The position numbers and the translations under genes are program-made. Below, in pieces: positions 14,891-55,424 of a stretch of DNA of 64,000 bases. Numbering within the stretch: position 1 is the first letter of the stretch; each line of letters opens with the position of its first letter. Source of the DNA: Bdellovibrionales bacterium (lineage in GTDB: Bacteria > Bdellovibrionota > Bdellovibrionia > Bdellovibrionales > Bdellovibrionaceae). Where the stretch lies: the NCBI GenBank assembly GCA_018266295.1, contig JAFEAQ010000011.1, positions 62,001 to 126,000 on the forward strand, written 5' to 3'. The notes under the pieces are model-generated. The model saw nothing but the letters and a program-made list of their open reading frames with translations. It searched no databases and was not told the origin of the DNA.

Positions 14891-14936
14891 TTTTTTTTCG
14901 TTTTGTGATTAGGATCCGCAAAGGAAGGTGGATGAC

Positions 14937-17174: not shown

Positions 17175-17188
17175 TGGAGTAGACCTCG

Positions 17189-18883: not shown

Positions 18884-18885
18884 TT

Positions 18886-20103: not shown

Positions 20104-20138
20104 AGTCATCTTCTGAACTCACGCGGAGGCTAAACACA

Positions 20139-20564: not shown

Positions 20565-20578
20565 TTCTTTGGAGTTTC

Positions 20579-21172
20579 ATGAATAAAAGGGGCTTCACCC
20601 TCATTGAAGTCATGATCGTGATCGCTATCATTGCCGGTCTGATCGCTGTTGGAGCCCCCCGCCTTCTCAAAAAAGATACCAATATCAAAACCGTGGCACG
20701 TCAGCTCACGGTTCTCGTCAAAGAAGTCCGAAATCAAGCCAAGCTTTTTAATTCCACCTACCGCATTGTCATCCGTATGGAGCAAGGACAAGAATCTTGG
20801 TGGGTTGAAAAAGCCAACGGCCCGGCTCTGATCGATCCAGAAAAATTAAAAGAAGACTACGAAGGCAAAGGTAAAAAAGACGACAAGGACAAAGACGCTC
20901 CTCCGCCGCTTTTCCAAATAGACAAAAGATTGTCGAAGAAGGAAAAAACCCTTCCATCAAATCTGCATTTCAAGCAGGTTGAAACCATCAATATGTCTCA
21001 ACCCGTCACAAGCGGGCTTGCGTATATTCATTTCTTTCCAGAAGGCCTTCTCGAGGCTTCTGCCATTCAAATCACCGACAACAAAAACACCTGGACGCTT
21101 GTCTTTAACCCGCTAACAGGTCAAGCTGATATTGTTGAAAAAGAAACCAGCTTAAAGGATATAAGTCGGTGA
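20579..21172 (+). CDS. gspH: Type II secretion minor pseudopilin GspH
   Basis: A very short leader MNKRG precedes FTLIEVMIVIAIIAGL, the type III signal of prepilins with Glu5. The protein (197 aa) fits GspH by position after gspG and by its beta-rich C-terminal part. A highly charged insertion at about residues 97-115 (GKGKKDDKDKDAPPP) is unusual and must be a solvent-exposed loop. It starts 14 bases after gspG and its stop overlaps the GTG of gspI by 4 bases. Confidence 0.92.
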   Translation: MNKRGFTLIEVMIVIAIIAGLIAVGAPRLLKKDTNIKTVARQLTVLVKEVRNQAKLFNSTYRIVIRMEQGQESWWVEKANGPALIDPEKLKEDYEGKGKKDDKDKDAPPPLFQIDKRLSKKEKTLPSNLHFKQVETINMSQPVTSGLAYIHFFPEGLLEASAIQITDNKNTWTLVFNPLTGQADIVEKETSLKDISR

Positions 21173-21696
21173 TCAAAAACAGAAAAGGCTTCACGTTGCT
21201 AGAGACACTACTCGCCGTAGTGATTCTCTCTATGGGTATTTTGCTCCTGACCCAGTCATGGAGTGGAAGCTTTTTGCGTATTCGAAAAACTCAGCTGAAT
21301 CAAGACGTCGCAGCCCTGCTTGAGCGCAAGATGAATGAAATTGATCTTGAGTTCCGTGGAAAACCACTTGATACCATTCCTGAAGAGAAAGAAGACGACT
21401 TTGGTGCCGAGTACCCTCAGTACAAATGGAAGATGATCTCTCGCGAATTCCAGATGCCGAACATGTCTTCAATTCTGATGCAGCAAGAAGGCGGCGCCAA
21501 CGACATGCTCATGATGATGATTCAACAACTGACAGAGCATCTCTCAAAAACCATCAAGGAAGTGAAGGTCAGCGTAATCTATACCGGCGGCAAGAAACCG
21601 CTGGAGTATTCCATCGTCACCTATTTTGTCGATTACAATAAGCCGCTGGCTATTGGCGGATCTACCGGCGCCGCACCTGGCGGGGCAGGTCCGTAA
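21169..21696 (+). CDS. gspI: Type II secretion minor pseudopilin GspI
   Basis: The GTG start overlaps the gspH stop (GTGA), which implies coupled translation. The leader MIKNRKG is followed by FTLLETLLAVVILSMGI with Glu5. The 175-residue length and position support GspI, which with GspJ and GspK forms the pseudopilus tip. A Met-rich segment lies near residues 97-115 (MSSILMQQEGGANDMLMMM), and the C-terminus is Gly/Ala-rich. It overlaps gspJ by one base (TAATG). Confidence 0.9.
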   Translation: MIKNRKGFTLLETLLAVVILSMGILLLTQSWSGSFLRIRKTQLNQDVAALLERKMNEIDLEFRGKPLDTIPEEKEDDFGAEYPQYKWKMISREFQMPNMSSILMQQEGGANDMLMMMIQQLTEHLSKTIKEVKVSVIYTGGKKPLEYSIVTYFVDYNKPLAIGGSTGAAPGGAGP

Positions 21697-22529
21697 TGAC
21701 GGCTTCTCGCCTTTCTTCGCAAAAAGGTTTTACCCTCATCGAGATGATGATCACAGTGGCGATTCTAGGAACGCTCACTGTGCTTGCGACTCAAAGTATT
21801 CAGCAAGCCATCCGTCAGAAAGTAAAAATCCAGGAACAAATCGACGATGTGTCACGCATGCGTGATGCCCTTCGCTTGATGGAAGCTGATATTAATCAAG
21901 CTTATCACTATCGTGACGTTGAAAAAGAAATCACAGATCTGGTGAATAAACCTGCGCAGGCCGCAAACCTGCCGCCGGGCATGCCGACACCGATTCCGAT
22001 TCAAACGCCGACACCTCCGCCGAATCCGGATGAGGCCACTCGCATCGATCCGGTCACTCAGTTCATGGGAACTGAGAGTTCCGTGGATTTCGTAACGATG
22101 AACAATGCGCGCATGATGCGCAATATGAAACAAGCCGATTTCATGGAAGTGGGCTACTCGCTAAAGTCCTGCAAAAGCCTGACGGGCGATAAAGGCTCTT
22201 CCCAATGCTTGTGGCGCAGAACCACAAGCTGGGTCGATGACGATGTCACCAAAGGTGGCGATGAAGTCGTGCTTCTTGAAAACATCACCGAGTTCAAATT
22301 GCGTTACATCGGTAAAGGCAAAGACGACTGGGTCAATAGCTGGCGCACGGACAATGGCGGCGACTCTGTCACGAAAGGGAACTTCCCCGCAGCTGTCGAG
22401 ATCTCGATGACAATTGAGCACGGTACCGGCGACAAAAAGAAAAAATATTCAATGCAGATTATCGCAAGAATCCATTTCCCTAATAACGATGAGAGCAAAA
22501 ATGCAAACAGCGCGACCAGTGGGCCTTAG
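21696..22529 (+). CDS. gspJ: Type II secretion minor pseudopilin GspJ
   Basis: The leader MTASRLSSQKG is followed by FTLIEMMITVAILGTL with Glu5. The protein has 277 residues, longer than many GspJ proteins because of a Pro/Thr-rich insertion at about residues 90-110 (PTPIPIQTPTPPPNP). The C-terminal half resembles the GspJ family: a double-stranded sheet region and FKLRYIG. The start overlaps gspI by one base. Its 3' end overlaps the start of gspK. Confidence 0.92.
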   Translation: MTASRLSSQKGFTLIEMMITVAILGTLTVLATQSIQQAIRQKVKIQEQIDDVSRMRDALRLMEADINQAYHYRDVEKEITDLVNKPAQAANLPPGMPTPIPIQTPTPPPNPDEATRIDPVTQFMGTESSVDFVTMNNARMMRNMKQADFMEVGYSLKSCKSLTGDKGSSQCLWRRTTSWVDDDVTKGGDEVVLLENITEFKLRYIGKGKDDWVNSWRTDNGGDSVTKGNFPAAVEISMTIEHGTGDKKKKYSMQIIARIHFPNNDESKNANSATSGP

Positions 22530-23727
22530 GCTCTTAAAAAATAATCGCGGAATGGCATTGATCATGGCCATTACTTGCGTGCTTTTGATTTCTTATATCG
22601 CCATGGAAGTCTCTTACGATTCATTGGTGGAGTATAACGTGAACGTCAACTCCCTCAACCGTCTAAAAGCTTACTATGCGGCTCGGGCCGGTGTGGATTT
22701 GAGTCTTCTTCGTATTAAAACTTTCCAACAAGCCTCTGCTCAATTTGGTAAGCAGCTTGGCGGTCAGTCTGAAATGCTTGATCAAATCTGGAAGTTCCCG
22801 TTCGCTTGGCCGGTGCCAATGCCCGATGGTCTGAATGGTACCGATAAGGATCAGATTAAGTCGGCCCTTAAAGAATCCATCATGGATGCGGCTTACGTTG
22901 TAACCATCGAAGACGAAGGCTCCAAACTGGATTTGAGTGACCTTGCCTCGCCTTCGAAAGTTTTAGCAGAGTCCACGCGCCGCCGTTTGCTGGATATTTT
23001 CCAAAATAAACTTAAAAACGATCAAGAGTTCCAGCGTAAATATGGCAACTACCGTTTCGAAGAACTCGTGAATGCGATCACCGACTGGCAGTCGAGAAGC
23101 CGTACAGGCGTGAGCGGCAGCGATAAGCGGGCCGGCTACAGCGGCTACCCTGAAAACTATCCCCCGAACCGCGGTTTTCGCACTCTGCAAGAGCTCCGCC
23201 TTGTAAGCGGTATGAACGAAGACATTTACGAGTTGCTGGAGCCGGCTATCACCATTTACGGAATGAAAGCCATCAATCCAAATCAAGCCAGCAAAGAGGT
23301 TTTGAAGTCGCTGGACCCCGAAATCAACGATGAGATCGCTGATGCGATCATCAAGCGCCGCGACAACCCTAACGAGGGCGGCCCGTTTAAAAACAAAGAG
23401 GACTTCTGGGGTTTCGTTACCGGCCGTGGTGCCCGCCTTGGCGAAAAAACCGAAGAGACACCGCTCATTTTTGACAAGGTCGTGAACTTTAGAATCAAGA
23501 GCACGGGCGAGTATGCTGGAGTGTCCCGTGAAATCACCGTCGTCGTGATGGATTTACAGACGATCGCAAGCACATTGAAGGGCTACGTCGATAAAGAAAA
23601 ACAGCAACAGAATCCCCAACAGCAGCAACAGCAAAATCCTGCGGCAAAACCGCAAAACCCAGCCCAAAGTCAGACCCCTGCACTTCCCAAAGGAGCTCCA
23701 AGGATTGTATACTGGGGCGAGCGCTAA
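22501..23727 (+). CDS. gspK: Type II secretion tip pseudopilin GspK
   Basis: I chose ATG 22501, which has GAGAG just upstream and gives a leader of 17 residues (ending NNRG) before MALIMAITCVLL. ATG 22489 is an alternative. As in all GspK proteins Glu5 is absent, consistent with a tip position. The helical domain (LDIFQNKLKNDQEFQRKYGNY) and the SAM-like, helix-hairpin-helix-type repeats (NPNQASKEVLKSLDPEIND) typical of GspK are visible. The tail from about residue 365 is Gln/Pro-rich (QQQQQQNPAAKPQNPA), unusual for the family. It overlaps gspJ by 29 bases. Confidence 0.94.
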   Translation: MQTARPVGLRLLKNNRGMALIMAITCVLLISYIAMEVSYDSLVEYNVNVNSLNRLKAYYAARAGVDLSLLRIKTFQQASAQFGKQLGGQSEMLDQIWKFPFAWPVPMPDGLNGTDKDQIKSALKESIMDAAYVVTIEDEGSKLDLSDLASPSKVLAESTRRRLLDIFQNKLKNDQEFQRKYGNYRFEELVNAITDWQSRSRTGVSGSDKRAGYSGYPENYPPNRGFRTLQELRLVSGMNEDIYELLEPAITIYGMKAINPNQASKEVLKSLDPEINDEIADAIIKRRDNPNEGGPFKNKEDFWGFVTGRGARLGEKTEETPLIFDKVVNFRIKSTGEYAGVSREITVVVMDLQTIASTLKGYVDKEKQQQNPQQQQQQNPAAKPQNPAQSQTPALPKGAPRIVYWGER

Positions 23728-23759
23728 GCACTCGTAAGATTTAAAAAAAAAGGCGAAAA

Positions 23760-25430
23760 ATGAGATCTGTTGGTATCGACATTGGCAGTAGTAGCATAAA
23801 AATTGTTGAGGTGCTGACAACCAGTAAAGGTTTTCAGGTCACTCAATGCTTCGAACGCCCGCTCGGCCTCAACCCCGCCCACGACCAAGAAATTGAAATC
23901 ATCGAGTTTCTTCGCGAGATTTCGGCGAAGTACGATCCGGCGCAAACCCGCTACTGCTTAGCTCTTCGTCAGGATCAAGTGAGTATCCGTAATAAAATTT
24001 TCCCATTTAGCGATAGAATGAAAATTTCTAAGAGCTTGGCTTTCGAGCTCGAAGAAGAAATTCCTTTCTCGGGCGACAACTCTGTTTTCGACGCAAAAAT
24101 CGTTCGCACCCTCGGCGTTACTGCCGAAGTTCTGGCGTGTGCAGCTCCGAAGCACCATATTCGCACTCTGCTTCAGCGCTGTGCCGATGCGAACATCGAG
24201 CCGGCTTTGATCTCGACTGAAGGGACGGCGTTTGCGAATATCTACGAAAAATGGAATGAAGCTCCGCCGGCTCATCCTGCCACAGACACGACTCTTCTGG
24301 GTGAACAGGAAAAGGTCGAGCGTCCGATGCATTTGACTCTGAATATGGGTCACACGCGCACTCTGGTGTGTGCGTTTGAAGGCAATTCTCTGATCGGCGT
24401 ACGCACGATTCTTTGGGGCGCAAAAAATATTTCTGATGCTGTTGCAAAGAAATATGAAATCCCTTACTTGGACGCTCTGAAAGAAGTGCAGAATAAAGCC
24501 TTCATCCTGACGAATAAACAAGGCGCGACGTTTGACCAAATTACATTCTCTGAAACGATTGCAAAATCGGTTCGTGAACTTGTGCGCGACTTGCAACTTT
24601 CTATTTTGGAATTTAAGAGCGAGTTCAACGCCGTGATCACTCAGATCGGCCTTACAGGCGGCTCGTCGGCAATTAAAAACTTGGGCCCGTTCCTGACTCA
24701 GCAGCTTGAATTGCCGGTGAACAAGGTTTATCCCCTCGATATGATTCCAAACGTGCTCTTTGAAAAGGGCCCGAAGACGGACACCACTTTCGGTTTGGCT
24801 CTCGGTATTGCGATTGAAGGCCTTAAAAAGCCACGCAACCCTGCCATCAATTTCCTCCGTGGTGAGTTCGCAAAGCAAAACAACTTTGCCCGCAACATGT
24901 GGGAAAAGTGGGGCCCGACTCTTAAAACAGCGGCGGCGGCAATGGTTGTGTTCTTCATTTACTCGATGATGCGCGAAAGTTTTTCTATGAGCCTTGCCGA
25001 CCGCGCCGAAGAAGCATTAAAAACCCAAGCCAAGAATGTAGCCAAACTCAGTGGTAAAAAAGCCACCGAAGCCAATATCAAGAAATACATTCGCGATAAT
25101 AAAAAGCGCGCGGCTGATTTAAAGACTCTTGCCAATGTGGCGACGATGAACTCAGCCCTTGAGATCGTTAAAAAGATCAACGACGCCACTCCGGCAAAGA
25201 ACTCCGTCACTTTGGACGTTAAAGGCGTTCACGTCCGTGACAGCGAAGTATCGCTTGAAGGTTACGTGAAGAGCCCGAATGAACTCACAGTTCTGCAGCA
25301 GGCTCTGACCAACTTGTCTGTGGACGGCAAAGTGAATAAAGGCAGCGTCCAGTTGCCCGCAGCCGCCGGAAAAACAGCGTTCTCGTTTAATTTTAAAGTC
25401 GATCGCGGCATTACTAAAACCATTCAATAG
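23760..25430 (+). CDS. gspL: Type II secretion protein GspL, PilM-like
   Basis: The first 350 residues are an actin-like fold very close to PilM of type IV pili: MRSVGIDIGSSSIKIVEV at the N-terminus and a phosphate-binding LTGGSSAIKNLG near residue 300. A single membrane helix follows (about 388-405), then a helical and ferredoxin-like periplasmic region resembling PilN or the end of GspL. In this gene order the protein takes the GspL role, binding GspE on the inside and GspM outside. At 556 residues it is longer than classical GspL. It starts 32 bases after gspK behind an A-rich stretch. Confidence 0.9.
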   Translation: MRSVGIDIGSSSIKIVEVLTTSKGFQVTQCFERPLGLNPAHDQEIEIIEFLREISAKYDPAQTRYCLALRQDQVSIRNKIFPFSDRMKISKSLAFELEEEIPFSGDNSVFDAKIVRTLGVTAEVLACAAPKHHIRTLLQRCADANIEPALISTEGTAFANIYEKWNEAPPAHPATDTTLLGEQEKVERPMHLTLNMGHTRTLVCAFEGNSLIGVRTILWGAKNISDAVAKKYEIPYLDALKEVQNKAFILTNKQGATFDQITFSETIAKSVRELVRDLQLSILEFKSEFNAVITQIGLTGGSSAIKNLGPFLTQQLELPVNKVYPLDMIPNVLFEKGPKTDTTFGLALGIAIEGLKKPRNPAINFLRGEFAKQNNFARNMWEKWGPTLKTAAAAMVVFFIYSMMRESFSMSLADRAEEALKTQAKNVAKLSGKKATEANIKKYIRDNKKRAADLKTLANVATMNSALEIVKKINDATPAKNSVTLDVKGVHVRDSEVSLEGYVKSPNELTVLQQALTNLSVDGKVNKGSVQLPAAAGKTAFSFNFKVDRGITKTIQ

Positions 25431-25438
25431 GTGAGCTG

Positions 25439-26131
25439 ATGAACTTTGATGACATTAAGGACAATCTAAAATCTCAGCTTGGTCAGACGTGGTCGCGCAT
25501 CGAAGACAGCTCGGCATACAACCAGCTGCGCGATCGCTTCGAGAATCTGACGCCGACAAATCAGAAGCTCGTGCTCTTGGGGGCTGGTGCTCTCACTGCT
25601 TTATTGATTTTTTCTATTCCGTTTTCTTACTACTCTACCTCCAGTGAATACGTAACGACTTACGAAGACAAGCGCAGTTTGATTCGTGAGCTTTTGAAAG
25701 TGACCCGTGAATCGAATGAAGTTCCGGACCTGCCGATCGCGCCGAACGCCGACATGCTAAAGAACACGATCGAAGGACAGCTGAATATGGCAAAACTTCT
25801 TCCTGAGCAAATGAAAGGGATTGAAGTGATGGCCGCGGATACGGGCCTGATTCCAAAAGGCTTGCTTGAAAGTGGGCTGCGCGTGAGTCTTGCAAAGCTC
25901 AATCTTCGCCAGATCATTGATATCGGCTACAACATTCAGGCGATCAGCCCGAGCGTTAAAATGAATGCGATTAACATCACGGCGAATCCCGAGGACCCAC
26001 GTTATTTTGATGTGGAAATGAAGCTTGTTTCTTTGGCGGTGCCTCAAGCTCACGTTGACATGCCGGATGCTGGTGATGAAGAAGCTGGCGGCAAAGCAAA
26101 GAAGCCGGCGTTTAAGAGAGGAAATCGCTAA
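25439..26131 (+). CDS. gspM: Type II secretion protein GspM
   Basis: A 230-residue protein with a cytoplasmic N-terminus of about 40 residues, one membrane helix (about 42-62, LVLLGAGALTALLIFSIPF) and a periplasmic region with a coiled helix and a ferredoxin-like domain. This layout matches GspM/PilO, the partner of GspL. The C-terminal tail is Lys/Gly-rich. It begins 8 bases after gspL and overlaps gspN by one base. The identification rests on position and topology more than on sequence motifs. Confidence 0.85.
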   Translation: MNFDDIKDNLKSQLGQTWSRIEDSSAYNQLRDRFENLTPTNQKLVLLGAGALTALLIFSIPFSYYSTSSEYVTTYEDKRSLIRELLKVTRESNEVPDLPIAPNADMLKNTIEGQLNMAKLLPEQMKGIEVMAADTGLIPKGLLESGLRVSLAKLNLRQIIDIGYNIQAISPSVKMNAINITANPEDPRYFDVEMKLVSLAVPQAHVDMPDAGDEEAGGKAKKPAFKRGNR

Positions 26132-27099
26132 TGGTCGGCGCGATTCGTAAGCTCTTCGGCATCATCTTTGGCTCAAAACTCAAGATCCTCGTCATGATCC
26201 TCTCGACGCTGGTATTCTTGCTGGTTCTTTTCCCGATTAATGACCTCGGCGATTTTGTTTCTTCTCAAGTAGCGCGTCTGACCGGCAACAAAGTGTTCTT
26301 GCAGTTTGAAGAACTGAAGATGTCACTCTTCCCTGCTCCCGGCATGAAGGTCGAACAAGTGTTTGTTGAAGCTCAAGGAGTTCCAGGAATTTCCGCTCAG
26401 GAAATCCGTTTTGCTCCGGCTGTGATGGGCCTGATCTCGCAAAAACCTTACGGCACTGTCGATGCAAAGGGTTTGTTTAAAGGCGACGTACAGATCTCTG
26501 TGAAATCGGGTTCTCGCTCTGAAAATGGCGTTGAAAGACAGCGTGTTGAAATCAGCGCCAAGAAACTGAGCCTGCAGGACTTGCGCGAAGTGGCTCGCTT
26601 ACCTGTGATGATAAAGGGCAAGCTGGATCTTGAATCCACCGCGCTTGTGGACCTTTCTTTCACGGAGCAGCCGGACGTTGATGTAAATCTCAATATCTCG
26701 CAATTTGAGCTCCCGCCGTCGAATGTGAACACTCCGATGGGCCCACTCACAATGCCCGATTTAAAGCTTACCAGCGTTGAAATTAAGGGCCGTCTGGCCG
26801 GCGGCAAACTCATCATTGAGCATGGCCAAATCGGAAAAGAGAGCGATGAAATGCGCGGCACCATCACCGGCAACCTCGATCTGTCTTTGGCAAACCAAGG
26901 CGGCGTGATTAATCCGGTGATCGGCGGTTACACATTCAATGTCGACCTTCGCATGAAGAATAACTTCCTGAACCGCGCTTCGACATTCCTCATTTTAGTT
27001 GATCAGTACAAGACTGCGACTGCTGAAGGTGCGCAGTACAAATTCAAAGTTTCCGCGGCAAATACCATGATGCCGCCATCGATCGGCGCCGCGCGTTAA
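26131..27099 (+). CDS. gspN: Type II secretion protein GspN
   Basis: The start overlaps the gspM stop (TAATG). A single N-terminal membrane helix (about residues 12-32) is followed by about 290 periplasmic residues with beta-strand character and the AsmA-like pattern of GspN (KGDVQISVKSG, then MRGTITGNLDLS). GspN is an accessory component present in only some type II systems. At 322 residues it is in the usual range for delta-proteobacterial-type members. It is the last gene of the cluster, and a stable hairpin lies 52 bases beyond its stop. Confidence 0.85.
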   Translation: MVGAIRKLFGIIFGSKLKILVMILSTLVFLLVLFPINDLGDFVSSQVARLTGNKVFLQFEELKMSLFPAPGMKVEQVFVEAQGVPGISAQEIRFAPAVMGLISQKPYGTVDAKGLFKGDVQISVKSGSRSENGVERQRVEISAKKLSLQDLREVARLPVMIKGKLDLESTALVDLSFTEQPDVDVNLNISQFELPPSNVNTPMGPLTMPDLKLTSVEIKGRLAGGKLIIEHGQIGKESDEMRGTITGNLDLSLANQGGVINPVIGGYTFNVDLRMKNNFLNRASTFLILVDQYKTATAEGAQYKFKVSAANTMMPPSIGAAR

Positions 27100-34248: not shown

Positions 34249-34276
34249 TAGATGAAATAACAACGTTAGCCGATAC
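34249..34276 (+). promoter_or_regulatory. Possible sigma-28 (FliA) promoter of the pseudopilin operon
   Basis: GCCGATAC (34269-34276) matches seven of eight bases of the FliA -10 consensus GCCGATAA. A weak -35, TAGATGAA, lies at 34249-34256. The spacing is one base longer than the usual 11. The start of transcription would fall near 34283, 27 bases before the first gene. Confidence 0.45.
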
Positions 34277-34309: not shown

Positions 34310-36823
34310 ATGAGCGAACACCGCCTCAAATTGAGGTCTTCCATAGTCTTGCGCACGCAAACAGGTTCAACCCTGCTCACAGCATTGGGTATGAGTGTTT
34401 TCGTGTGCCTGATGATCATGATGTCTGCGATCTGGATTCAGAGCCGCGTGAACCAAGTCATGTCGTCTTCCGACAAAATGGATCACCGGATCGTGCTGGA
34501 TGGCCTTTTCGCCTACACAGTCAATGGCATCAAACAGTCCTGGTGTTTTTCAGACACCTGGGTTCAGGATAACGCCTGCAATCTCTTCCATGCGCGCAAC
34601 ACGGTTCGCTTACTCCTCAGCGATGAAACTCTGAACTACCTGGGCTCATCAAAAACTCCGCACCCCGATCCAGTGATCAACACGCGCTTAATGGTGATGA
34701 CTCAGACCGTGCCACTGGCGGCGATCACTCCAAGCCACCCGCTCTTTAGCATCACGCAGCCTCTGAACGGCAACTACGAGAATGTCACCTTCAACATCAA
34801 GCGCGAAAGCTCGGCGATTTCAACAACCAAGGGGAATGAAATTCCGCTTCGGATCAGTATCAAGCTTGTCGCGAAAGCCAGCAGCAGCTTCAAAGATCTT
34901 GAGTTGCAATCAAAAGTCATCGTCTATCCGCGCGAACTCAGCTATTTCGGCCTGATTGTGCCCAAGGCACTCTACCTTGGTATGCCGGCCCCGACAGCCG
35001 GTGACGTTAGCTTCGCAAGCGCTTCATCGTCTGTGATTCAAGGCCTTCGTTTTGAAAGCCCGGTCTTCGTCAATGGCGATTTGCACTTACCACCAAAAAC
35101 TGCAAATGCCGATGCAGCGATGGATAACGTGACCTTCCTCGATAAAATCGTGATCGGTGGCGGTTTGATCTATCAAGGTGCCGGACAAACTCTGTTTAAT
35201 CCCGGCGATGCTGGTGGTGAGAAAAATATGTACAACCATGAGCTCACGTCGTTTACAGGGCTGCTGGCTGGCTATGAGCTTGACCCTGAAAAAGACAAGG
35301 GCCTCGAGTATCTCTTTAATGTGAACAGCAATATCACGCTCACGGATTTTGATCTTTGCCGCAAGCGCATTATGGCGTCATTTGACCTTTCCACAACCAA
35401 AGATACGCAGTTATTTAGTCGCTTCAACGGATCTCCGGCGGCAAACAGTTTTGATCTTTCCCTGAACATCGGGATCATTGATAACTTGATTGAGCAATTC
35501 CAGGACACCGGCGGGACTGCGTTTGAAATCGCAACCAACGTTCCGAACGTGACGACGGCGGGAAAAATCGTCAGTTGGCAGGGCGGCGCCGTTTTTAAGG
35601 CAAAACTCATCTATGAGGGTCTCAATGTTCCTTCAGCCGGAACCCGTGATGTCTATTTCAATACCTTCTATCTCCCGCGAAATGGCGAAGTGGCCCTTTA
35701 CCCACTCGGAGCCGGAGGACCAGAAGTTCATGTTCGTACTTCGCCACATATGGTGAGCGGCAAGAAGCAGTACAATCAAGTCGACATGAATGTGACCTTC
35801 ACTGATGCCGGTAACTTGGATATTGGCGCTTATACGTCCGGCAATGTTTTAACTCAAGGAAGTGTGAAACTGGTTTTAGAAGGCATGGACTACGCCTATA
35901 ACTACGCGACCAACCTGCGTGACAACTCTTCTTCACATCCAGTGATGGGCGTTTACAAATCCAACGGTTTTACCTTCTATAAATCTTCAGCTGCTTCTTT
36001 CGACGTTTACCGCCAGACAGCCGGCGGCTGGTATACAAATCCAATGTTACAAGTCGATACCGTGAATTATCCGGTGTACGATGCCTCGCAAGCGCCGAAT
36101 GGCGAAACAGACTTTAGCGCCTTCGATGCTCAGTGTATGGCGGTGCCTGGCAATACGGATGCTTACTACACGTCGTTCCCGTCAGCGGATTGGTCGATCT
36201 CGTTCGCGAGCCAAGCTCGCCATGCCTGGAGCTTTACCGCTGACTTCCCGGATGGCTATCTCGCGGGTATCCTGCATATCGATGCAGGAACGGCAGCCTA
36301 CAATCCAGGTGCTGGCCAATATCCGACTTTCAAAATTCAATCTCTCGTTCAAGAATGTATGATCGAGGCTGACGCCAATTTCGTGACGGGTTTTTATACC
36401 TGCGAAAAGTTGACGATCAAGCCACGCTCGACGCCGTTAAGAATTATCGGCACCATCATCGCCGGCAATATTGATATTCACCCGAGTGCGTATCAGGCCG
36501 GCATCCGCTGGAGCACGATCTATCATCCTCAAGCCGTTTACGAACTTCGTCAGGCGCGGGTTTTGGGCCGTGATAAAAAAGGCGCCGTCCTTGATTGCGC
36601 AAGCCCGAGCTTACCGCCGCTTTGGATGCCGAATATCGGCGCGATTTCAGTGATGACTCACTATGCTTGTAATCCGGTGAGCCTCCGCCAAGCCGATCCG
36701 TTTAAGTGGACCGGGGTAGATCCTGATTGCGGTCTTGAAACTCCGCAATCCACGAAAGTGACTTGTAAGAAACAAACAACCCGCTTCTTGCTCAAAGAAG
36801 TCAGCAGAACGAAGGGGTTGTGA
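34310..36823 (+). CDS. Very large pseudopilin-like protein (837 aa), GspK/PilX-like tip candidate
   Basis: A polar 19-residue leader ending TQTG precedes a hydrophobic helix (STLLTALGMSVFVCLMIMMS) like that of type IV pilins. Position 5 after the predicted cleavage is Thr rather than Glu, as is typical for GspK/PilX tip pilins. The rest, about 780 residues, is beta-rich with no family I recognise and is far longer than normal minor pilins. AAGGCAG precedes the ATG. The next gene begins at its stop (TGATG), and two more prepilin genes and an EF-hand protein follow, so it probably sits at the tip of a pseudopilus and carries an adhesive or sensing domain. Prepilin cleavage is a prediction. Confidence 0.8.
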   Translation: MSEHRLKLRSSIVLRTQTGSTLLTALGMSVFVCLMIMMSAIWIQSRVNQVMSSSDKMDHRIVLDGLFAYTVNGIKQSWCFSDTWVQDNACNLFHARNTVRLLLSDETLNYLGSSKTPHPDPVINTRLMVMTQTVPLAAITPSHPLFSITQPLNGNYENVTFNIKRESSAISTTKGNEIPLRISIKLVAKASSSFKDLELQSKVIVYPRELSYFGLIVPKALYLGMPAPTAGDVSFASASSSVIQGLRFESPVFVNGDLHLPPKTANADAAMDNVTFLDKIVIGGGLIYQGAGQTLFNPGDAGGEKNMYNHELTSFTGLLAGYELDPEKDKGLEYLFNVNSNITLTDFDLCRKRIMASFDLSTTKDTQLFSRFNGSPAANSFDLSLNIGIIDNLIEQFQDTGGTAFEIATNVPNVTTAGKIVSWQGGAVFKAKLIYEGLNVPSAGTRDVYFNTFYLPRNGEVALYPLGAGGPEVHVRTSPHMVSGKKQYNQVDMNVTFTDAGNLDIGAYTSGNVLTQGSVKLVLEGMDYAYNYATNLRDNSSSHPVMGVYKSNGFTFYKSSAASFDVYRQTAGGWYTNPMLQVDTVNYPVYDASQAPNGETDFSAFDAQCMAVPGNTDAYYTSFPSADWSISFASQARHAWSFTADFPDGYLAGILHIDAGTAAYNPGAGQYPTFKIQSLVQECMIEADANFVTGFYTCEKLTIKPRSTPLRIIGTIIAGNIDIHPSAYQAGIRWSTIYHPQAVYELRQARVLGRDKKGAVLDCASPSLPPLWMPNIGAISVMTHYACNPVSLRQADPFKWTGVDPDCGLETPQSTKVTCKKQTTRFLLKEVSRTKGL

Positions 36824-37281
36824 TGAGACGGAATATGAAAAATCAAAAGGGTTTTACCCTGATTGAAATTCTGATTTCTCTTGTGATCGGCTCGATTACA
36901 GCGGCCGTGATTGCAAGCTATATTTCTTATTTGGCACGGCTGAATGCCCAAATGAAACTCCGCCGCGTTTCTGGTGAAGCGATTCACTCGCTTGCGGAAA
37001 GCATTCGTTTCAATCTTTCTTTGTTCCAGGCAAGTTTCGACAATAGCATTACAAAAGAAAAAGAGATGCTCGATCCAGCGAAGCTGCCGCTTGGGATCCA
37101 AAATCATAACTTGGTTCAGCGTTCTGAATGCGCCAAAGTGGCGTGCCAAGCTTATGTTGGCTACATCATTATTCCGAGTGAGATTGTGAGAAACTTATAT
37201 CAAGTCAAATTTTTGGCCGTGAGTACGGATGAGGAGGGCAAGTGGCGTCAAACCTTCACTTACTTCATCACCGTAAAATAG
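36823..37281 (+). CDS. Minor prepilin (152 aa)
   Basis: I chose ATG 36823, which overlaps the previous stop by one base and has GAAGGGG 5 bases upstream; an in-frame GTG at 36820 is also possible. The leader MRRNMKNQKG precedes FTLIEILISLVIGSI with Glu5, a clear class III signal for prepilin peptidase. The C-terminal half (about 110 residues) has one cysteine pair (ECAKVAC) and resembles PilW/PilV or GspI/J proteins in size. The next gene starts 40 bases inside its 3' end. Confidence 0.88.
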   Translation: MRRNMKNQKGFTLIEILISLVIGSITAAVIASYISYLARLNAQMKLRRVSGEAIHSLAESIRFNLSLFQASFDNSITKEKEMLDPAKLPLGIQNHNLVQRSECAKVACQAYVGYIIIPSEIVRNLYQVKFLAVSTDEEGKWRQTFTYFITVK

Positions 37282-38279
37282 CGCGCAATCAGCGCGGCTT
37301 TAGCATGATCGAGGTCCTCCTTGTGGTGGGACTGATGACCTTTGTTGTTTTAGGCAATACGATGTTCATCAATGATTTCATTCACCGTATGAATCAGTAT
37401 GAGAAGGAATCTTCGGACGAATCGCAAATGGCAGTCTTAAACATCATGGCCGTCAATATCATGAAGAAATCGGCTTTAAGCTATAACCGCATTCGCATGG
37501 CCGATGATAACAACGCAAGCTTTTATGACTATTATCCGGATTTGCCGCTCAGTACATTTGGCACAACCGGCAGCCGCAGTTTTACCATGACGGCAAAAGA
37601 CACGACGAAGTATTTCTATCTTCTAACTTCGGATGAAGCTGATTTCGATTCTTTAACCTATGAACCGATGCACGCCTACGAAGAAGTAACGACACCGTCC
37701 GATATTACTCAGGATGGAACGATTCGCTATCGCGGACTTAACACCATTCCGGATATCGATAACGGTAGCGGTAGCGTAGCGACAGATAAGCTTATGTCCA
37801 AGGTGTTTGGTGATCGCTGGGCTAACGGAAAATTATTCGTGTTGACCTGCCCGACGTATCTGCGCCCGGTTTCAGCGGCAAATACGATTAATTTGATGAC
37901 TTTACCGCGGATGCCGTCCTTTATCGGCAAAGTTGTCGGCGATGATTTACAGCCCCTCTTCAACTCGGAAGCCGCCGTGACGATTACAAATTCTCATCCC
38001 GTGACGAATGCGGTTTATAACTCCGTCGATCAGTATCTGCGCACTCTGCCAACAATCGGTGGCGCGGCTCCTTTTGTGAAAATCGAGCCAGCGGTGCTTT
38101 ATCGCTTCGAAATGCGGGCGAATTCAAAATATCCCGCGGGCTACGCGGATCTTGTCATGAAAAAATGGAGCCCGGGCGGTTACGGCTCTGAAATCATGGT
38201 GACCGATAAAATTCAGTCTGTTGAATTCAAAAGATCATCCATTGCTCTTCCTGTTGTCAGCCTGGAGGTTCAAAAATGA
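37242..38279 (+). CDS. Prepilin-like protein (345 aa)
   Basis: A GTG start with GAGGAGGG 4 bases upstream lies inside the previous gene (40-base overlap in another frame). A 19-residue leader ends NQRG, followed by FSMIEVLLVVGLMTFVVLG with Glu5. At 345 residues it is large for a minor pilin and comparable with PilW or GspJ. The mature part is beta-rich with a few conserved-looking aromatic strands and no known catalytic motif. Its stop overlaps the next start (ATGA), so translation is probably coupled. It likely forms part of a tip complex with its two upstream neighbours. Confidence 0.87.
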   Translation: MASNLHLLHHRKIARNQRGFSMIEVLLVVGLMTFVVLGNTMFINDFIHRMNQYEKESSDESQMAVLNIMAVNIMKKSALSYNRIRMADDNNASFYDYYPDLPLSTFGTTGSRSFTMTAKDTTKYFYLLTSDEADFDSLTYEPMHAYEEVTTPSDITQDGTIRYRGLNTIPDIDNGSGSVATDKLMSKVFGDRWANGKLFVLTCPTYLRPVSAANTINLMTLPRMPSFIGKVVGDDLQPLFNSEAAVTITNSHPVTNAVYNSVDQYLRTLPTIGGAAPFVKIEPAVLYRFEMRANSKYPAGYADLVMKKWSPGGYGSEIMVTDKIQSVEFKRSSIALPVVSLEVQK

Positions 38280-39547
38280 GAACGTCAGCTCGCATCCTCA
38301 TGACAGCTTTAGGCAGCCTCTCGTTCGGGGTGACTTCGGCCTTTGCTCAAACCGCCTCGACCACAGCGGTGCCTAAAACGGCCGCCGATATTAATATTTT
38401 GCCGGCCTCAGGGCCGAACTTGAGCGACGTTGTTGTCGACTCACAGATGAGCTACACTCGCAGCAGCAGCAATACCACCAATTTGGATATTCATATCTAT
38501 TGCTACGGTACAAATTTGCGTGCGATTCCAAATCCCCTAAGCCCGGCTTCAACAGTGACCGGCTACATTAACTATCAAGCTTTTGACGGCACCTACAAAA
38601 CTTACGCCATCACCTTTCCTGGCATTGCGACAATGACAACAGACTCGCGCGATGAGGATCTTTCAACGGCTGCTGTTTCTCGTGTTTATGACTCCGCCGG
38701 AAATTTCCAATACGCCGTCAACGCGCATCTTAAAGACCGCATGATCCGCGCGGCTTTAAAAAGCACACAGAAAACGAAGATCGACCTCACGCCATCAAAC
38801 GCCGAGTATGGCCGCGTTGTTGACGTCAGTGCAAAAAGCTTCTTAGTTCAAAGCATTCGCTTCGAACAAAAAATGCCACCGGGTACGACCCAACAAAAAT
38901 TCATGGGCTGGGACGGTCCGCTCACCGCTGCGGTGACATGGTATGCGGCGGATAACGGCCGGCAAATCAAAGTCTATGCGGGATTTCCTGGTGAAAATCG
39001 CTTCTGCGGAGGCTTCTTCTCGCCGCTGGTTTTGAAATTTAAATCTCCGGAAAAACCGCCGGCAATTACGAAGAGCTCCCACTTCCCGGTGATGGAGCGG
39101 GATTTAAAACTGCCAGGCGGTGCTCCGAAAATTTCTTGGCCGGATTTCTCAGAAGAAACTTACTTCTTAGCAATGGATACACTCAATGACGGCAAGATTG
39201 AGTCTGGTCGAGATCTGTTTGGCGATATCAATGGTTACGAAAATGGTTTTGCAAATTTGGCTTTCTATGATGACAATAAAGACGGCGTGATTGATGCAAA
39301 AGATAAGATCTTCAGTAAGCTCCTGTTGTGGAGTGACCGCAATCACGATGGTATCAGTCAGAAATCTGAAATTAAAAAGCTGTCTGATTTAGGTGTTATT
39401 TCTATTTCTCTCACCTACCAAAAAGAAACCCGCTATGTGGGGAACTCCGGAAAAATCCTTGGTCCGGGGGAATTTACTTACAAGGATAAAAAAGGGAAAA
39501 TCCAAAAAGGTTCGCTCTGGGATGTGTTTGTTACGGCGATACCATAA
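38276..39547 (+). CDS. Secreted protein with three EF-hand-like loops (423 aa)
   Basis: The start overlaps the previous stop by 4 bases. A signal peptide covers residues 1-25 (ending AFAQ). The N-terminal 270 residues are beta-rich and unrecognised. Near the C-terminus are three loops of the D-x-N/D-x-D-G-x-I type: DTLNDGKIESGRD (from residue 301), DDNKDGVIDAKD (from 332) and DRNHDGISQKSE (from 354). These are expected to bind calcium, though the first departs from consensus at position 3. Calcium binding is common in tip adhesins and pseudopilus proteins. The operon position suggests a partner of the three pilin-like proteins. Confidence 0.84.
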   Translation: MRTSARILMTALGSLSFGVTSAFAQTASTTAVPKTAADINILPASGPNLSDVVVDSQMSYTRSSSNTTNLDIHIYCYGTNLRAIPNPLSPASTVTGYINYQAFDGTYKTYAITFPGIATMTTDSRDEDLSTAAVSRVYDSAGNFQYAVNAHLKDRMIRAALKSTQKTKIDLTPSNAEYGRVVDVSAKSFLVQSIRFEQKMPPGTTQQKFMGWDGPLTAAVTWYAADNGRQIKVYAGFPGENRFCGGFFSPLVLKFKSPEKPPAITKSSHFPVMERDLKLPGGAPKISWPDFSEETYFLAMDTLNDGKIESGRDLFGDINGYENGFANLAFYDDNKDGVIDAKDKIFSKLLLWSDRNHDGISQKSEIKKLSDLGVISISLTYQKETRYVGNSGKILGPGEFTYKDKKGKIQKGSLWDVFVTAIP

Positions 39548-39565
39548 GAGTTTTGAGGGGGCGAT

Positions 39566-40285
39566 ATGAAAAAACTAAACGCAAAGACACTTCTGCTGGG
39601 CGCAGGAATGCTTGCAATTATCGGCGTGAGCGCGTCTTCCGTTGGCCAAAGCAATCGCTGGGAAAAGCGAATGACCAAAGACACCGTTCAAGGTGAAAAG
39701 AGCAGCGTGAACCTGCGCTCTGGGAAAAAGACACTTGAAAACGGCACTCAATCCGCGGCAACTCCGGCTCCTGCGGGTGTCGCTGATTACGGCGACGGCA
39801 CTCTGCACTGCCGCGACACGCTTTTAAAGCTCAACACCCACTTTGAAAATCCTGCAGCCGCTGGCGTGTCAGAACTTGCGATCCCTGAAATGGGTCATGG
39901 TGCAAGTCGCGCTTATAACTGCGTGGATATTAAACCTGCATTGATCAGCAACGCGGGTCAGTTCGTAAATGCCGGAACGATGACGGTGAGATGTACAAAT
40001 GGTCAGCTCGCAGTCGTTGCTTCAAACTGCACGGCACCGACTCCGCCGCCTTCGACCCCAACACCGACTCCCGCGGCAACGGCTACTCCAGGTACAGGAC
40101 CAACTCCAACTGCGGGTAACAATACGCCGGCGTGCAATAGCTACTGTAGCGATAAGATTGCTTCGTGTACTCGCATGGGTGGTAAGAACATGGAAGTGAC
40201 CTACCAGTACCGTACTTGTCAAAATGGCCAAGTCTACTTTACAAAGACCGACAAATGCGGCAGCAAACCGACCGCCTGCTACTAG
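39566..40285 (+). CDS. Exported Pro/Thr-rich protein (239 aa)
   Basis: GAGGGG precedes the ATG. The N-terminus (KKLNAKTLLLGAGMLAIIGVSAS) reads as a signal peptide or membrane anchor. The middle (residues about 70-150) has a small domain with two cysteines; then a Pro/Thr/Ala-rich linker (STPTPTPAATATPGTGPTP) leads to a compact C-terminal segment with four or more cysteines (CNSYCSDKIASC, TCQNG, KCGSKPTACY). Such linkers join surface domains. It is 18 bases after the EF-hand gene and is followed by a strong terminator, so it ends the operon. Function unknown. Confidence 0.82.
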   Translation: MKKLNAKTLLLGAGMLAIIGVSASSVGQSNRWEKRMTKDTVQGEKSSVNLRSGKKTLENGTQSAATPAPAGVADYGDGTLHCRDTLLKLNTHFENPAAAGVSELAIPEMGHGASRAYNCVDIKPALISNAGQFVNAGTMTVRCTNGQLAVVASNCTAPTPPPSTPTPTPAATATPGTGPTPTAGNNTPACNSYCSDKIASCTRMGGKNMEVTYQYRTCQNGQVYFTKTDKCGSKPTACY

Positions 40286-40296
40286 CAAGTCTCAAC

Positions 40297-40325
40297 AGGC
40301 CTCCCCACACGGAGGCCTTTTTTTT
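40297..40325 (+). terminator. Rho-independent terminator of the pseudopilin operon
   Basis: AGGCCTCC (40297-40304) and GGAGGCCT (40311-40318) form a perfect 8-base GC-rich stem with a 6-base loop, followed by eight T residues. It lies 12 bases after the last gene of the operon. Confidence 0.95.
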
Positions 40326-40377: not shown

Positions 40378-42615
40378 ATGTTTTATTTAGCCCTGCTCTC
40401 GGGACTCATTAATCTTTCCTCCCAAACGGTCTACCAGAAGATCGTATCAATGACCGTTGGTGACCTTTATACGACGTTTATGGCCGTGCTGCTGACCTTC
40501 ATTGTCGGTGCCGCGATCGGTGGATATTTTGGTTTCTATTTGAGACGATTTTTGCCTTGGATCGAGTTGTTCTCGGGCCTTTACGCGTTGATGTTGTTTA
40601 TCCCCCTCTCGGGGCCGTTTTATAAATATGACATCTCGTTGCCCCTTGTGATTGCCGCCCTTATTCCGCCGGCATTTTCTTTGGGAACCCATGTGCCACT
40701 CTATAGCATCTATCTTCGTCAACAACGCTTTGGCTTTATCTATAGTCTTTATCACTGGGGCGCAATTCTGGGACTCGTCGCTTTTGAGTGGTACTTCGTG
40801 CACGCTGGCTCTGTGAAATACGCGCTGGGCTTCTTAGGTCTTTGCCAGACGATTCTTGGAATTACACTCATTATTCTTGCACGACAAAATCGCTTTGACC
40901 TGCCAAAGGCTCGCGCCGTCACAAATCCTCTACCAGTTTGGTTCAGCAAGCTGCGCGGGTCTGTGATCAGTGTGCTTGCAGCTTCGACTCTTAGTTTTTT
41001 TCATCTTTTTTGGGCGCTCAAAACACAAGTGGCTCTGACGGAAGGCTTCCGCATGCAGGCAACGATGACAAGTGCCGCGGTTCTTTTCTGGATGAGTACA
41101 GCGGGCGCGGCCTCGAAGATTTTGCCGCGCATGGAGCGCGCTTGGTTTTTCTTTCTTATTGCCGCCGGCGTTGCGCTGACCCAACTGACGTTTCCATGGA
41201 TTCCGATGGCGATCACGGATCTAAATACCGGTTCGCCGGCATTTTATTTTCTGATTTCTCTATTGCTTGCGATTTATCTGACACTGCCGGTGTTTTTCTC
41301 AAGCCTCGTATTTATTCAAGAAACTGAAGCCGCCCACCAGATATTGGATATCGATCAGGCCAGTGGCGGGCTCAATCTGTTTGCAAGCTTAGGAAATATT
41401 CTCGGATTTGTTTTTGGCGCCCTCCTTGCCGGTATACTCTGGAAGACCGGGTATTTCGCCGTCTCGTTGTTAGCGGCTTTGACGTTCTATTTAGCTTTCA
41501 TTTTTCAATGCAAAACGCGTAAGCCTGGAAAAATTTTGACGGCATTGCTGGCTATCAGCGCCGTGAGCGTTTTTGCTTTTTCTCACCATCAGCAGAATTA
41601 TCTTTTTTTAAACCGGCTGCACAAACCCACACGCGAGATTCAAACCATGACGGATGTATGGATCCGCTCAAGCGCTCTTTCAAGCATGGCGCTTGTAACT
41701 CGCCAGTTAACAATTCCTGTGAGCGATTTACCAAAGGCGCTGCAAATTTCTACAAAGCCTGCCCGGTTCTACATTGTCGACGGCCACCTTTCCCATGATA
41801 TTTTTGGCGGCTCTGAGTACATGAGTGGGATTTCCGGTGCAAAATTCTTTTCTCGTCCGCTGAAAAATTCTCTCGTGATTGGCATTGGCAGTGGCCAGGC
41901 CGCTTGGGGCCTGATGGCAATTAGTGAGCACACGGACATGGTCGAAATTTCGCCGGCCGTATTAGAAAATCTTTCAGCACTCAAAGAGTTCAATGAAGAT
42001 CTTTTAGCAAATCCCCACAAGAGCATTTACTTAAAAGATGGATTTTCTTTTGTGCGCGATTGTCAGCCCGAAAGTTACGACCTGATTTTGAACACGGCGA
42101 CCTACCCGTCGAACTTCAACGCCGCAAAACTTTATAGTACTGAGTTTGTCGGACTTGCGAAGAAATGCCTGAGCCCCGAAGGCGTTTTCCAGACATATTT
42201 TGATTTTAATTCCGTCATCAATATGCAGCAGCTCAACGAGTTCCTGGCTCCTCTCCGAGCGCACTTTAAATACGTCGATATTATGATAGAGCCCTATCCA
42301 CAGGTTTATGCCTATAATCAGGCTCGCCAGATTGAAAAAATTCACGATGCGGATTTCCCGCGCATGGAGGACCTCGCCGTCATTCAAAGACTTCGAAGCG
42401 AGAAAAGGCTTTTTCACGGCGACTGCCAAGATTTTTTAAGAAATCCCCCACCACCACCAATTCCTGCCGAAGTCAGCAGCTTGGATCGTGCGACTCTTGA
42501 AGCCAATAGCTTTCTAAACTCTGTCGGTGCGGCCTCAGGGAACTTTGAGTTTCTGAATGTGGATGAGTTCTTTCAGCCGCCCCCAGGCCAAGTGGGCGCG
42601 TTTACCTGCGAATAG
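40378..42615 (+). CDS. Membrane protein with spermidine-synthase-like domain
   Basis: The first 390 residues hold about ten to twelve hydrophobic helices of the MFS-like type found in fused spermidine-synthase-like transporters (GLINLSSQTVYQKIVSMTVGD at the start). The C-terminal 300 residues have a Rossmann-fold methyltransferase pattern: LVIGIGSGQAAWGLM (nucleotide binding), VEISPAVLE and YDLILNTATYPSNF. This resembles spermidine synthases, but I do not see the full polyamine-site residues, so true aminopropyl transfer is uncertain. The last 81 bases overlap the end of the convergent gene at 42535. It is monocistronic after the terminator at 40297. Confidence 0.85.
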   Translation: MFYLALLSGLINLSSQTVYQKIVSMTVGDLYTTFMAVLLTFIVGAAIGGYFGFYLRRFLPWIELFSGLYALMLFIPLSGPFYKYDISLPLVIAALIPPAFSLGTHVPLYSIYLRQQRFGFIYSLYHWGAILGLVAFEWYFVHAGSVKYALGFLGLCQTILGITLIILARQNRFDLPKARAVTNPLPVWFSKLRGSVISVLAASTLSFFHLFWALKTQVALTEGFRMQATMTSAAVLFWMSTAGAASKILPRMERAWFFFLIAAGVALTQLTFPWIPMAITDLNTGSPAFYFLISLLLAIYLTLPVFFSSLVFIQETEAAHQILDIDQASGGLNLFASLGNILGFVFGALLAGILWKTGYFAVSLLAALTFYLAFIFQCKTRKPGKILTALLAISAVSVFAFSHHQQNYLFLNRLHKPTREIQTMTDVWIRSSALSSMALVTRQLTIPVSDLPKALQISTKPARFYIVDGHLSHDIFGGSEYMSGISGAKFFSRPLKNSLVIGIGSGQAAWGLMAISEHTDMVEISPAVLENLSALKEFNEDLLANPHKSIYLKDGFSFVRDCQPESYDLILNTATYPSNFNAAKLYSTEFVGLAKKCLSPEGVFQTYFDFNSVINMQQLNEFLAPLRAHFKYVDIMIEPYPQVYAYNQARQIEKIHDADFPRMEDLAVIQRLRSEKRLFHGDCQDFLRNPPPPPIPAEVSSLDRATLEANSFLNSVGAASGNFEFLNVDEFFQPPPGQVGAFTCE

Positions 42616-51135: not shown

Positions 51136-51156
51136 TTAACTTGAAGGATTATGAAG

Positions 51157-54100
51157 ATGAAACGCCTGTGGGACGTATGCAGCATTCTCTCTCTTCTTCT
51201 CCTAGCTAGTCATGCTTGGGCAGGCACGGGCTTGACTTATCACGGCCGTATTCTCAAACCGGATGGCAGCGCTCTTGAAGGACCGGCGGTACAGTTCACT
51301 TTGCAGATTCGAAGCCCCGGCAATGAAAGCTGCCTTCTCTATCAAGAGACGCAGACGATTAATATGAGCGATAGCGGCGGAGCCTTCTCTCTGGAGATTG
51401 GCGCAGATCCAACATACCGTGTGGCGGCTTCGGTAGACGGCGGCTATTCTCTTGCAAAAGTTTTTGCCAATAACAGCACTCTCACATTGCCAAACTGTGC
51501 TTACGGTTCAACCTATACACCGAATACTGCCGACTCTCGCCTGCTCTATATTAGTTTCAATGACGGTAGTGGGGCGCAGAATCTCACAGCTCAGAAAATC
51601 AACTACGTGCCCTATGCCATCGAATCGATGCAAGTCAATGGCTACAAAGCCAATCAGCTTTTACGCGTCGACACCGGCAGCGCTCCAGTTTTAACCTCAG
51701 GAAATTTGACGGTCCTAAATGATCTCTTTAACGGTGTTCTGACCAATTCCACAGCAAGCTTGAAGCTACCAACAACCGTCGGTACTTCCGGCCAAGTGAT
51801 GCAAACGGATGGCTCCGGAAATCTTTCGTGGGTGACGCCCGCGTCAGGTTTGGGATACACCCCATTGAATAAGGCAGGAGATACCCTGTCGGGAGCCTTA
51901 GAACTTGCCTCGAATAATTTGATCAATACCGGCAATATCTCGATGGCTTCAAATAAATACTTCACTCTTTCTGCGAACACCACCAACGGCACTGTCGCCG
52001 GTCAAATGTGGTACGATACCGGCGTCATTAAATACTTTGACGGCACAAGCGTTCGCGCGCTTGGTGTTTCTGGCGCAGCACCGACTCTGGCTGCTTCTGA
52101 TATCACTGGTGCTTTGGGTTATACACCGGTTTCATCAGCAAATGGCTATGTCAATGGTGGCAATACCTTTGGCGCCAATGCGACCGTGGGACTGAATGAC
52201 GCTTTCAAATTAGGTTTTAAAACCAATAACACCACACAAATGACTCTTGATTCAAACGGCAATTTGGGTGTCGGTACTGCCTCTCCATGGAGAAAGCTCC
52301 ATGTTCAATACACCGCAAGCGCCTCTGATGACGGTATCATTGTCGACAATCTTGGTAATGCTGGCGCCAATCTTTCTTTAAAAAGTTCGGGAGCCGGCGG
52401 ACACGAATACATGATGATCTCTACAGGCTCTGCGAATTCGACAGGCGCGGGATCTTTCGGAATCTTTGATCAAAATGCAGTTTCCTACAGAATGGTGATT
52501 GGCCCTACCGGAAACGTGGGTATCGGCATGTTGGCGCCGGCATATACTTTAGATTTAGGTTCAAGAACCGATGCCCTTCGTTTGCCTTCCGGTTTAGATG
52601 CAACCCGTCCTACAAACGCGGCGGGCTTGATTCGTTACAACACAACTTCAAATGTTGTTGAATATAATAATGGCTCTGCTTGGATAACCGTTGGTTCTAG
52701 CGGAGGAAGCTTGCCAGCCATTGCCGCTGGTCAAGTGTGGGTTGGTAATGCATCAGGCGCTGCTCAAGCATTTAGCTTGTCTGGTGATGTTGCTTCAGTA
52801 TCTAACACAGGTTCTGTCGTAGTTAATAAAACAACAACCGGTCAAGCCAATTACATCTTAGCTCTTGATGGCTCTGGGGTTGCTAACGTTAAGGGCCTTG
52901 ACATGCAAACAGGCACTGGCAAAGTGACTTTGCAAACTGCGGGGGCTTTCACAAACTACGTGCTCACGCTCCCAAATGCGGCTCCAGCGAATAATCAAAT
53001 CTTAAAATCAGATGCTTCAGGAAATCTTTCTTGGGTGACGTATTTAGCTCAAGTTTCTGATTCAGCTCCCCTCACTAACGGTAAAATGTGGATCGGGAAT
53101 GCATCAGGTATCGCTTCTGAAGTGACCTTGTCGGGCGATGCGACGATTTCTAATGCAGGCTTATTGACTCTTAAAAATACCGGCACCGTCGGCACCTATT
53201 TCAAAGTAGTGACAGACGCTCAAGGTCGCGTGACTTCTGGAGGCGCCCTTGCTTCTGGAGATGTGATAACAGCTCTTGGCTATACGCCAGCAACTCCAGG
53301 ATCTGGATACATCAATGGCGGGAATACTTTTGGGGCCGATGCCACAATGGGACTCAATGACAATCACAATTTAGGCTTTAGAACGAACAATAAAACCCAA
53401 ATGACCCTCACAGGAACGGGCTACTTAGGAGTTGGTACAGCCACTCCGCGCGGTAATTTAGATGTCACTTCTCCCGATGTGGCTGAAATGTTTTTAACAA
53501 GTAGCAGTGGCGCGAACTACACAGGAAGCGGCCTTGTTTTACAAAGTCTTTCCGCAGCTGGTGGCTCTCGTGCCATGGGTATTTTTATGCATGATGAAGC
53601 GGATCAAGATGAGTGGTTTGCGGGAAGACCGTTTAACTGGATCGGAGATAATGACGCTTATATTATTAGCCGTAAAACAAGCACGGCTAATCATGATCGC
53701 TCTACGTCAGAAGGGGTTCTGTCTCTTTTAACAATTAAAGGAAATGGCAATGTCGGTATTGGTAATAACACTCCTTCAGTGTCTTTGGATTTAAGTGCGA
53801 AAACAGATGCCGTTTCGTTACCAAAGGGAACCACAGCTCAGCAGCCGTCTAATGCCGCGGGACTGATTCGCTATAATACATCTAATAACGTTGTTGAATA
53901 TAACAACGGCTCCGGCTGGTTGACACTCGCTTCCAACAGCGCGGGCACTCCTTTTGTGAACGGCGGCAACTCTTTCGGCGGAGCTGCGACTCTTGGTACG
54001 AATGACAACAACAACCTGAACTTTGAAGCCAATAATACAACGATCATGACTATTAAACCGGCCGGCACCATCGGCATTAACACCAACAATCAATCAGCAA

Positions 54101-55296: not shown

Positions 55297-55424
55297 TTGA
55301 CAAGAAAAAACAAATACCACACGAGCAAGGAATTCGAAAAAATACTCGCTTTCATATCCTGATGTGATATCCGCCCTTTAGCAATCCGCGAGTGTCCCCG
55401 ATGAGTTCATTGAGGATACAAACT

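Follow-up and report, generated by a model that had tools for sequence, protein, structure and literature searches.

We analysed a 64,000-nt window (the whole stretch of DNA under study, from contig JAFEAQ010000011.1 of a Bdellovibrionales bacterium; positions are given on the window scale) with a focus on an operon at 34310-40285 that encodes three pilin-like proteins and a secreted calcium-binding partner. On balance, we favour the explanation that this operon specifies one of four interchangeable minor-pilin complexes in the genome, which would prime and tip a type IV filament (the type IVa pilus, T4aP, being the likeliest one) and make contact with prey. The first four genes of the operon form a conserved cassette, and it is the composition, the distribution and the joint inheritance of this cassette that point to a filament tip.

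Five co-directional, tightly packed open reading frames (ORFs) were found on the forward strand. The first encodes a giant K/X-like prepilin of 837 aa (34310..36823), the stop codon of which overlaps the start of a small I/V-like prepilin gene (36823..37281, about 152 aa) as TGATG at 36821; alternative starts for the latter lie at 36820 (GTG) and 36835 (ATG). The small prepilin gene shares 40 nt with that of a mid-size, J/W-like prepilin (37242..38279, 345 aa), which in turn shares ATGA with the gene for the 423-aa secreted protein (38276..39547). The fifth gene (39566..40285), whose 239-aa product is exported and contains a Pro/Thr linker, begins 18 nt further on, so that only the first four genes overlap, and a putative intrinsic terminator with an 8-bp stem followed by T7 lies on the same strand at 40297..40318. 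A sequence-only reading had described this region as a five-gene operon with a single terminator, comprising an 837-residue pilin without the glutamate at position 5 (Glu5), two Glu5-containing prepilins and a secreted protein with three EF-hand-like loops, and had drawn a parallel to GspK-I-J or PilX-W-V with a calcium-binding accessory. All of this is borne out, with the qualification that the three loops are parts of a larger, recognisable domain. The Pro/Thr-linked protein is indeed encoded where proposed, but it is a lineage-specific accessory of the operon and not a conserved member of the set, as its only homologue was found at the same place in the nearest relative, UBA4095 (L044:14153-14851, 35% identity).

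The N-termini of the small and mid-size proteins are those of class III prepilins, with a short leader ending in Gly, a hydrophobic helix and Glu at +5, and both proteins match the N_methyl family PF07963 (4.8e-10 and 9.6e-5, respectively) as well as their family alignments. Among relatives, Glu5 is present in 45/46 small and 45/45 mid-size prepilins, and two Cys residues of the small prepilin are invariant across its family. The giant likewise starts as a prepilin, with RTQTG followed by STLLT and a hydrophobic stretch; its leader ends at Gly19 and Thr occupies position 5. Glu5 occurs in none of the genuine giant N-termini of the family (partial ORFs and a few rows with a misplaced motif were left out of the count), where position 5 is mostly Gln, then Thr or Leu. 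Since this holds throughout the family and the other two prepilins nearly always carry Glu5, its absence from the giant is not a matter of chance. The giant thus has the prepilin-like N-terminus without Glu5 that characterizes the GspK/PilX class. One pilin without Glu5 accompanied by pilins that retain it is the division found in complexes topped by GspK or PilX.

Beyond its N-terminus, the giant resembles nothing in the databases searched. The window protein matched no Pfam, NCBIfam or PADLOC family, and 23 members of its family gave no Pfam matches besides chance coiled-coil ones, the T2SSK and PilX_N models included among those left unmatched. Sequence and Foldseek fold searches against the PDB returned nothing significant, and the match to an enzyme or cell-wall family that would have spoken against a pilin was looked for and not seen. 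The AlphaFold2 model (mean pLDDT 80, pTM 0.67) places a 58-residue N-terminal helix (residues 18-75) ahead of beta-rich domains. The protein ranges from about 840 to 1390 aa across the cassette loci; nine Cys residues are invariant in an alignment of 14 sequences, and the C-terminal ~230 residues are best conserved, with 36-47% identity in most matches.

The fourth protein of the cassette has a signal-like N-terminal helix, an N-terminal half without a known relative and a C-terminal half (residues 250-423; 39023..39544, forward strand) homologous to the self-processing module (SPM) of FrpC, on the basis of a profile match to 6sjw/6sjx (E 1.6e-25) and a Foldseek fold match (E 1.3e-9). Against Pfam, it gave only a weak EF-hand match and none to an RTX family. 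The landmarks of the SPM map onto the window protein with similar spacing: Pro415, Trp451 and Trp519 correspond to P250, W288 and W352, and Asp579 to D416, each in 20/20 members. The calcium loops starting at D499 and D521 are well conserved and the D462 loop is found in 16/20, while the incomplete N-terminal calcium site of the FrpC module has mostly been lost in the family. The position of the scissile Asp414, which we equate with Ser249 of the window protein from spacing and conservation and not from a printed structural alignment, is Ser in 19/20 members and Asp in one (L061). The SPM fold and its calcium-responsive core are thus retained. The clip-and-link chemistry of the module requires this Asp (PMC7078468), and because it is replaced by Ser in 19/20, we predict that nearly all members lack the chemistry. 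A lipoprotein-like 448-aa homologue of the SPM domain, in which Ala-Pro replaces Asp-Pro, is encoded a few genes from one of the other cassettes of this genome (L030:8521-9867, near the C14 cassette).

With the giant as query, three further copies were found on other contigs of the genome (C14, C13 and C4), making four in total, and homologues were present in 7/39 relatives in the same search. At these loci, the gene order is again giant, small prepilin, mid-size prepilin and secreted protein. The same arrangement is seen at 22 named loci, all from Bdellovibrionales or Bacteriovoracaceae, of which B. bacteriovorus kdesi contributes two and Bdellovibrio sp. qaytius one; the 22 came from an alignment scan, a single-sequence scan of the same contig collection having given no match. 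A separate ORF for the small prepilin was missed at a few loci, and the commonest overlap between genes is 4 nt. A profile built from 23 giants matched 61/293 Bdellovibrionota genomes and 27/154 genera, some of the matches being two halves of one protein; the cassette nearly always keeps its gene order. In one genus, g7, nearly all members carry the cassette, usually in two copies; this genus is probably Bdellovibrio, judging from the kdesi loci, which are orthologous and syntenic to its cassettes. Two of its genomes (G043 and G052) have markers of the type II secretion system (T2SS) and the T4aP and no detected cassette. In three genomes (G051, G053 and G056), two giant genes read from one strand are separated by about 6 kb, as apparent tandem cassettes.

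Wherever the contig of a cassette reaches far enough, the secreted-protein gene is found next to the giant. In qaytius, a Pseudobdellovibrio metagenome-assembled genome and one from Bdellovibrio (L062-L064), it lies directly upstream of the giant, which indicates that its linkage to the pilins has outlasted a rearrangement. The tree-distance matrices of the four proteins from 25 cassettes are correlated (r 0.76-0.89, with 0/1000 permutations as high), indicating that the four genes have been passed on and duplicated together, although such a correlation cannot tell physical interaction apart from shared ancestry.

Expression in the attack phase is suggested by the promoters of these cassettes. 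In B. bacteriovorus, the sequence TTAAG-N16-CCGATA is present in 92/140 attack-phase promoters (PMC3627812). Matches of at least 9/11 to this consensus lie upstream of 24/44 giant genes compared with 18/386 other ORFs at the same loci (p 1.9e-16), and those of at least 10/11 upstream of 11/44 and 2/386, respectively; the 44 genes are non-redundant, yet some are orthologues, so the p-value overstates their independence. Strong attack-phase sites are found in relatives at the orthologous positions. Such a promoter does not discriminate between use by a T2SS and use by a pilus.

Which machine the cassette serves was judged mainly from the gene complement. The sequence-only reading had seen no platform genes nearby. 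This does not hold, as a complete T2SS operon lies about 7 kb upstream (13958-27099, in the order gsp C to N, with GspM and GspN assigned from position only). Its suggestion that the cassette may replace the tip of the T2SS pseudopilus is weakened by the same operon, which itself encodes G, H, I, J and K. An alternative T2SS pseudopilus tip, with the SPM-like protein as substrate or cap, is favoured by the K-I-J-like composition and by the presence of a T2SS in the same window. We nevertheless consider it unlikely: the cassette neither lies within the gsp operon nor fills a vacancy in it, the other cassettes of the genome are on other contigs, and a secreted partner and multiple copies suit pilus tips better. 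The genome encodes one other full-length platform protein of the GspF/PilC type (C11:188455), among genes with T4aP-like order and N-termini; a major pilin resembling PilA is encoded at another place (C11:420494). T4aP are reported to be present and needed in the attack phase (PMC4237445). Because the T2SS offers no vacancy, the gene complement mirrors that of minor pilin/PilY1 operons and the T4aP is present and needed at the relevant stage, we infer that the T4aP is the favoured host machine.

Several observations weigh against a T4aP tip that contacts prey. The putative attack-phase (FliA-type) promoter of the window cassette, TAGAT-N16-CCGATA (34249..34275, forward strand), has a perfect -10 element and a poor -35 element, amounting to 8/11 of the consensus, and is weak when taken alone. 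No cassette was seen to adjoin pil genes, and further orphan prepilins in the genome could prime the T4aP. That neither PilX_N nor the PilY1 domain PF05567 was found over the cut-off in 40 relatives speaks for such a tip, yet the control of the PilY1 search matched 0/14 genomes, so that its sensitivity is unproven. A T2SS marker is found in every cassette genome (GspG in 63/63 cassette-related genomes tested), which is compatible with T2SS use. Most related genomes have a T4aP and no cassette at the sensitivity of our search, and the cassette is therefore not essential for the T4aP in general. Since a T4aP marker is also present in nearly every cassette genome, the co-occurrence of markers cannot decide between the two machines.

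It is improbable that the cassettes instead form the tips of a Tad (type IVb) pilus, as KilLMN does in Myxococcus xanthus. In favour of this, the Kil Tips, of which a genome has four, are paralogous sets of three pilins, one of them large, variable and disulfide-rich, and are used in predation (PMC12075869), and predation by B. bacteriovorus requires Tad (PMC6561027). However, the cassette proteins match no TadE or other Tad family, and the small and mid-size pilins are of the N_methyl GFxxxE type; TadE itself was not found over the cut-off in this genome, which makes the missing TadE match a weak test. Least probable is that the cassette proteins, be they on the surface or secreted, rely on their pilin-like N-termini just for export and anchoring outside any filament, for although the operon has no assembly genes and the giant would be an exceptionally large pilin, three co-inherited prepilin-type proteins share the Glu5/no-Glu5 division of known tip complexes.

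For the favoured T4aP tip, the following mechanism can be proposed. The three prepilins, whose signal sequences are evident, would be trimmed by a PilD-type peptidase. From sequence features and gene order, the giant without Glu5 may form the distal tip in the manner of GspK or PilX, and the small and mid-size prepilins under it would take the roles of GspI/PilV and GspJ/PilW, priming assembly. The secreted protein would fold on Ca2+ through its SPM-like domain and, as its linkage and co-inheritance suggest, join the giant as a non-pilin tip subunit reminiscent of PilY1. A filament, in the likeliest case the T4aP, may carry the resulting head and bring it to prey in the attack phase, in line with the promoters of relatives and with the adhesive head for prey that the sequence-only reading had suggested, and different cassettes would then give different tips. 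More tentatively, predatory Bdellovibrionota, whose genomes yielded no recognisable PilY1, may carry swappable tips of type IV filaments that belong to a so far undescribed class. Each would be composed of a giant pilin head and a Ca2+-folded protein, derived from an FrpC-type SPM that has lost its cleavage residue, and would be expressed in the attack phase; several sets per genome would serve to recognise different prey. No published description of the cassette was found in the literature outside subscription sources. A transposon sequencing study states that Bdellovibrio attaches to prey "through an unknown mechanism" (PMC6561027). If the cassettes are alternative pilus tips, they would provide a small, testable set of genes (usually two cassettes per genome in the Bdellovibrio-like genus) with which to study how prey is attached to and which prey is taken, and an example of an SPM fold that works outside RTX proteins and has lost its self-cleavage residue.

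Other features of the genome are worth recording. Downstream of the operon, 40378-42615 encodes a membrane protein (745 aa) that combines a spermine/spermidine synthase domain with a weak match to MFS and a homologue of which flanks the orthologous UBA4095 cassette on the opposite side (L044:6674-8854). Two candidate trimeric surface fibres are encoded at 51151-60152, very large proteins of 1381 and 1586 aa that both end in a Peptidase_S74 endosialidase chaperone domain. A minor-pilin-like cluster on contig C4 (~442.5-447.2 kb; L129:5565-10223) encodes a 342-aa prepilin with Glu5, a 257-aa prepilin without it and a divergent 958-aa Glu5 prepilin, the last of which does not match the giant profile and occurs in only 4/40 genomes. 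On C11 (~949.6 kb; L130:6653-8235), a prepilin pair with GITLIEV (Glu5) and GQVLIQV (no Glu5) lies outside any cassette. In Bdellovibrio sp. NC01, the prepilin-type protein DOE51_RS05845 carried N176K at high frequency after long coculture with a single prey (PMC9888234, Table 1).

Among known systems, the minor pilin/PilY1 complexes of the T4aP (FimU-PilV-PilW-PilX-PilY1) share with the cassette overlapping minor prepilin genes and a secreted calcium-binding protein encoded with them, as is typical of PilY1/PilC. The cassette differs in having no FimU-like gene, in its giant X-like pilin, which comes first in order, and in an SPM-like partner in place of a PF05567 beta-propeller; its proteins match neither PilX_N nor PF05567, and PilX_N was not found over the cut-off in 40 genomes. 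GspK-GspI-GspJ likewise combines a K-like pilin without Glu5 and two Glu5 pilins, whereas the cassette has no T2SSK, T2SSI or T2SSJ match and lies outside the gsp operon of a genome whose T2SS has its own set. The partner resembles the FrpC SPM in fold, in the T-shaped Trp pair, in its calcium-binding loops and in the equivalents of Pro415 and Asp579, yet it has Ser for Asp414 in 19/20 and is a signal-peptide protein of ~420 aa, unlike the very large RTX protein secreted by a type I system. In M. xanthus, three minor pilin/PilY1 clusters serve one T4aP, and the genome, as here, holds several paralogous clusters distant from the main pil locus (PMC13190605). The Tad pilus of the same predator has four interchangeable KilLMN (TadEFG) Tips, which resemble the cassettes as exchangeable sets of three pilins, one of which is large, Cys-rich and of unknown fold; the same source presents a B. 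bacteriovorus Tip predicted by structure search as TadEFG-like, which could not be matched to genes here and may overlap with the cassette (PMC12075869). The cassette differs from these in its N_methyl pilins without a TadE signature and in its fourth, calcium-binding gene. We hypothesize that the cassette works in the Bdellovibrionota as the PilY1 clusters and Kil Tips do in Myxococcus, yet by domain content it belongs to neither.

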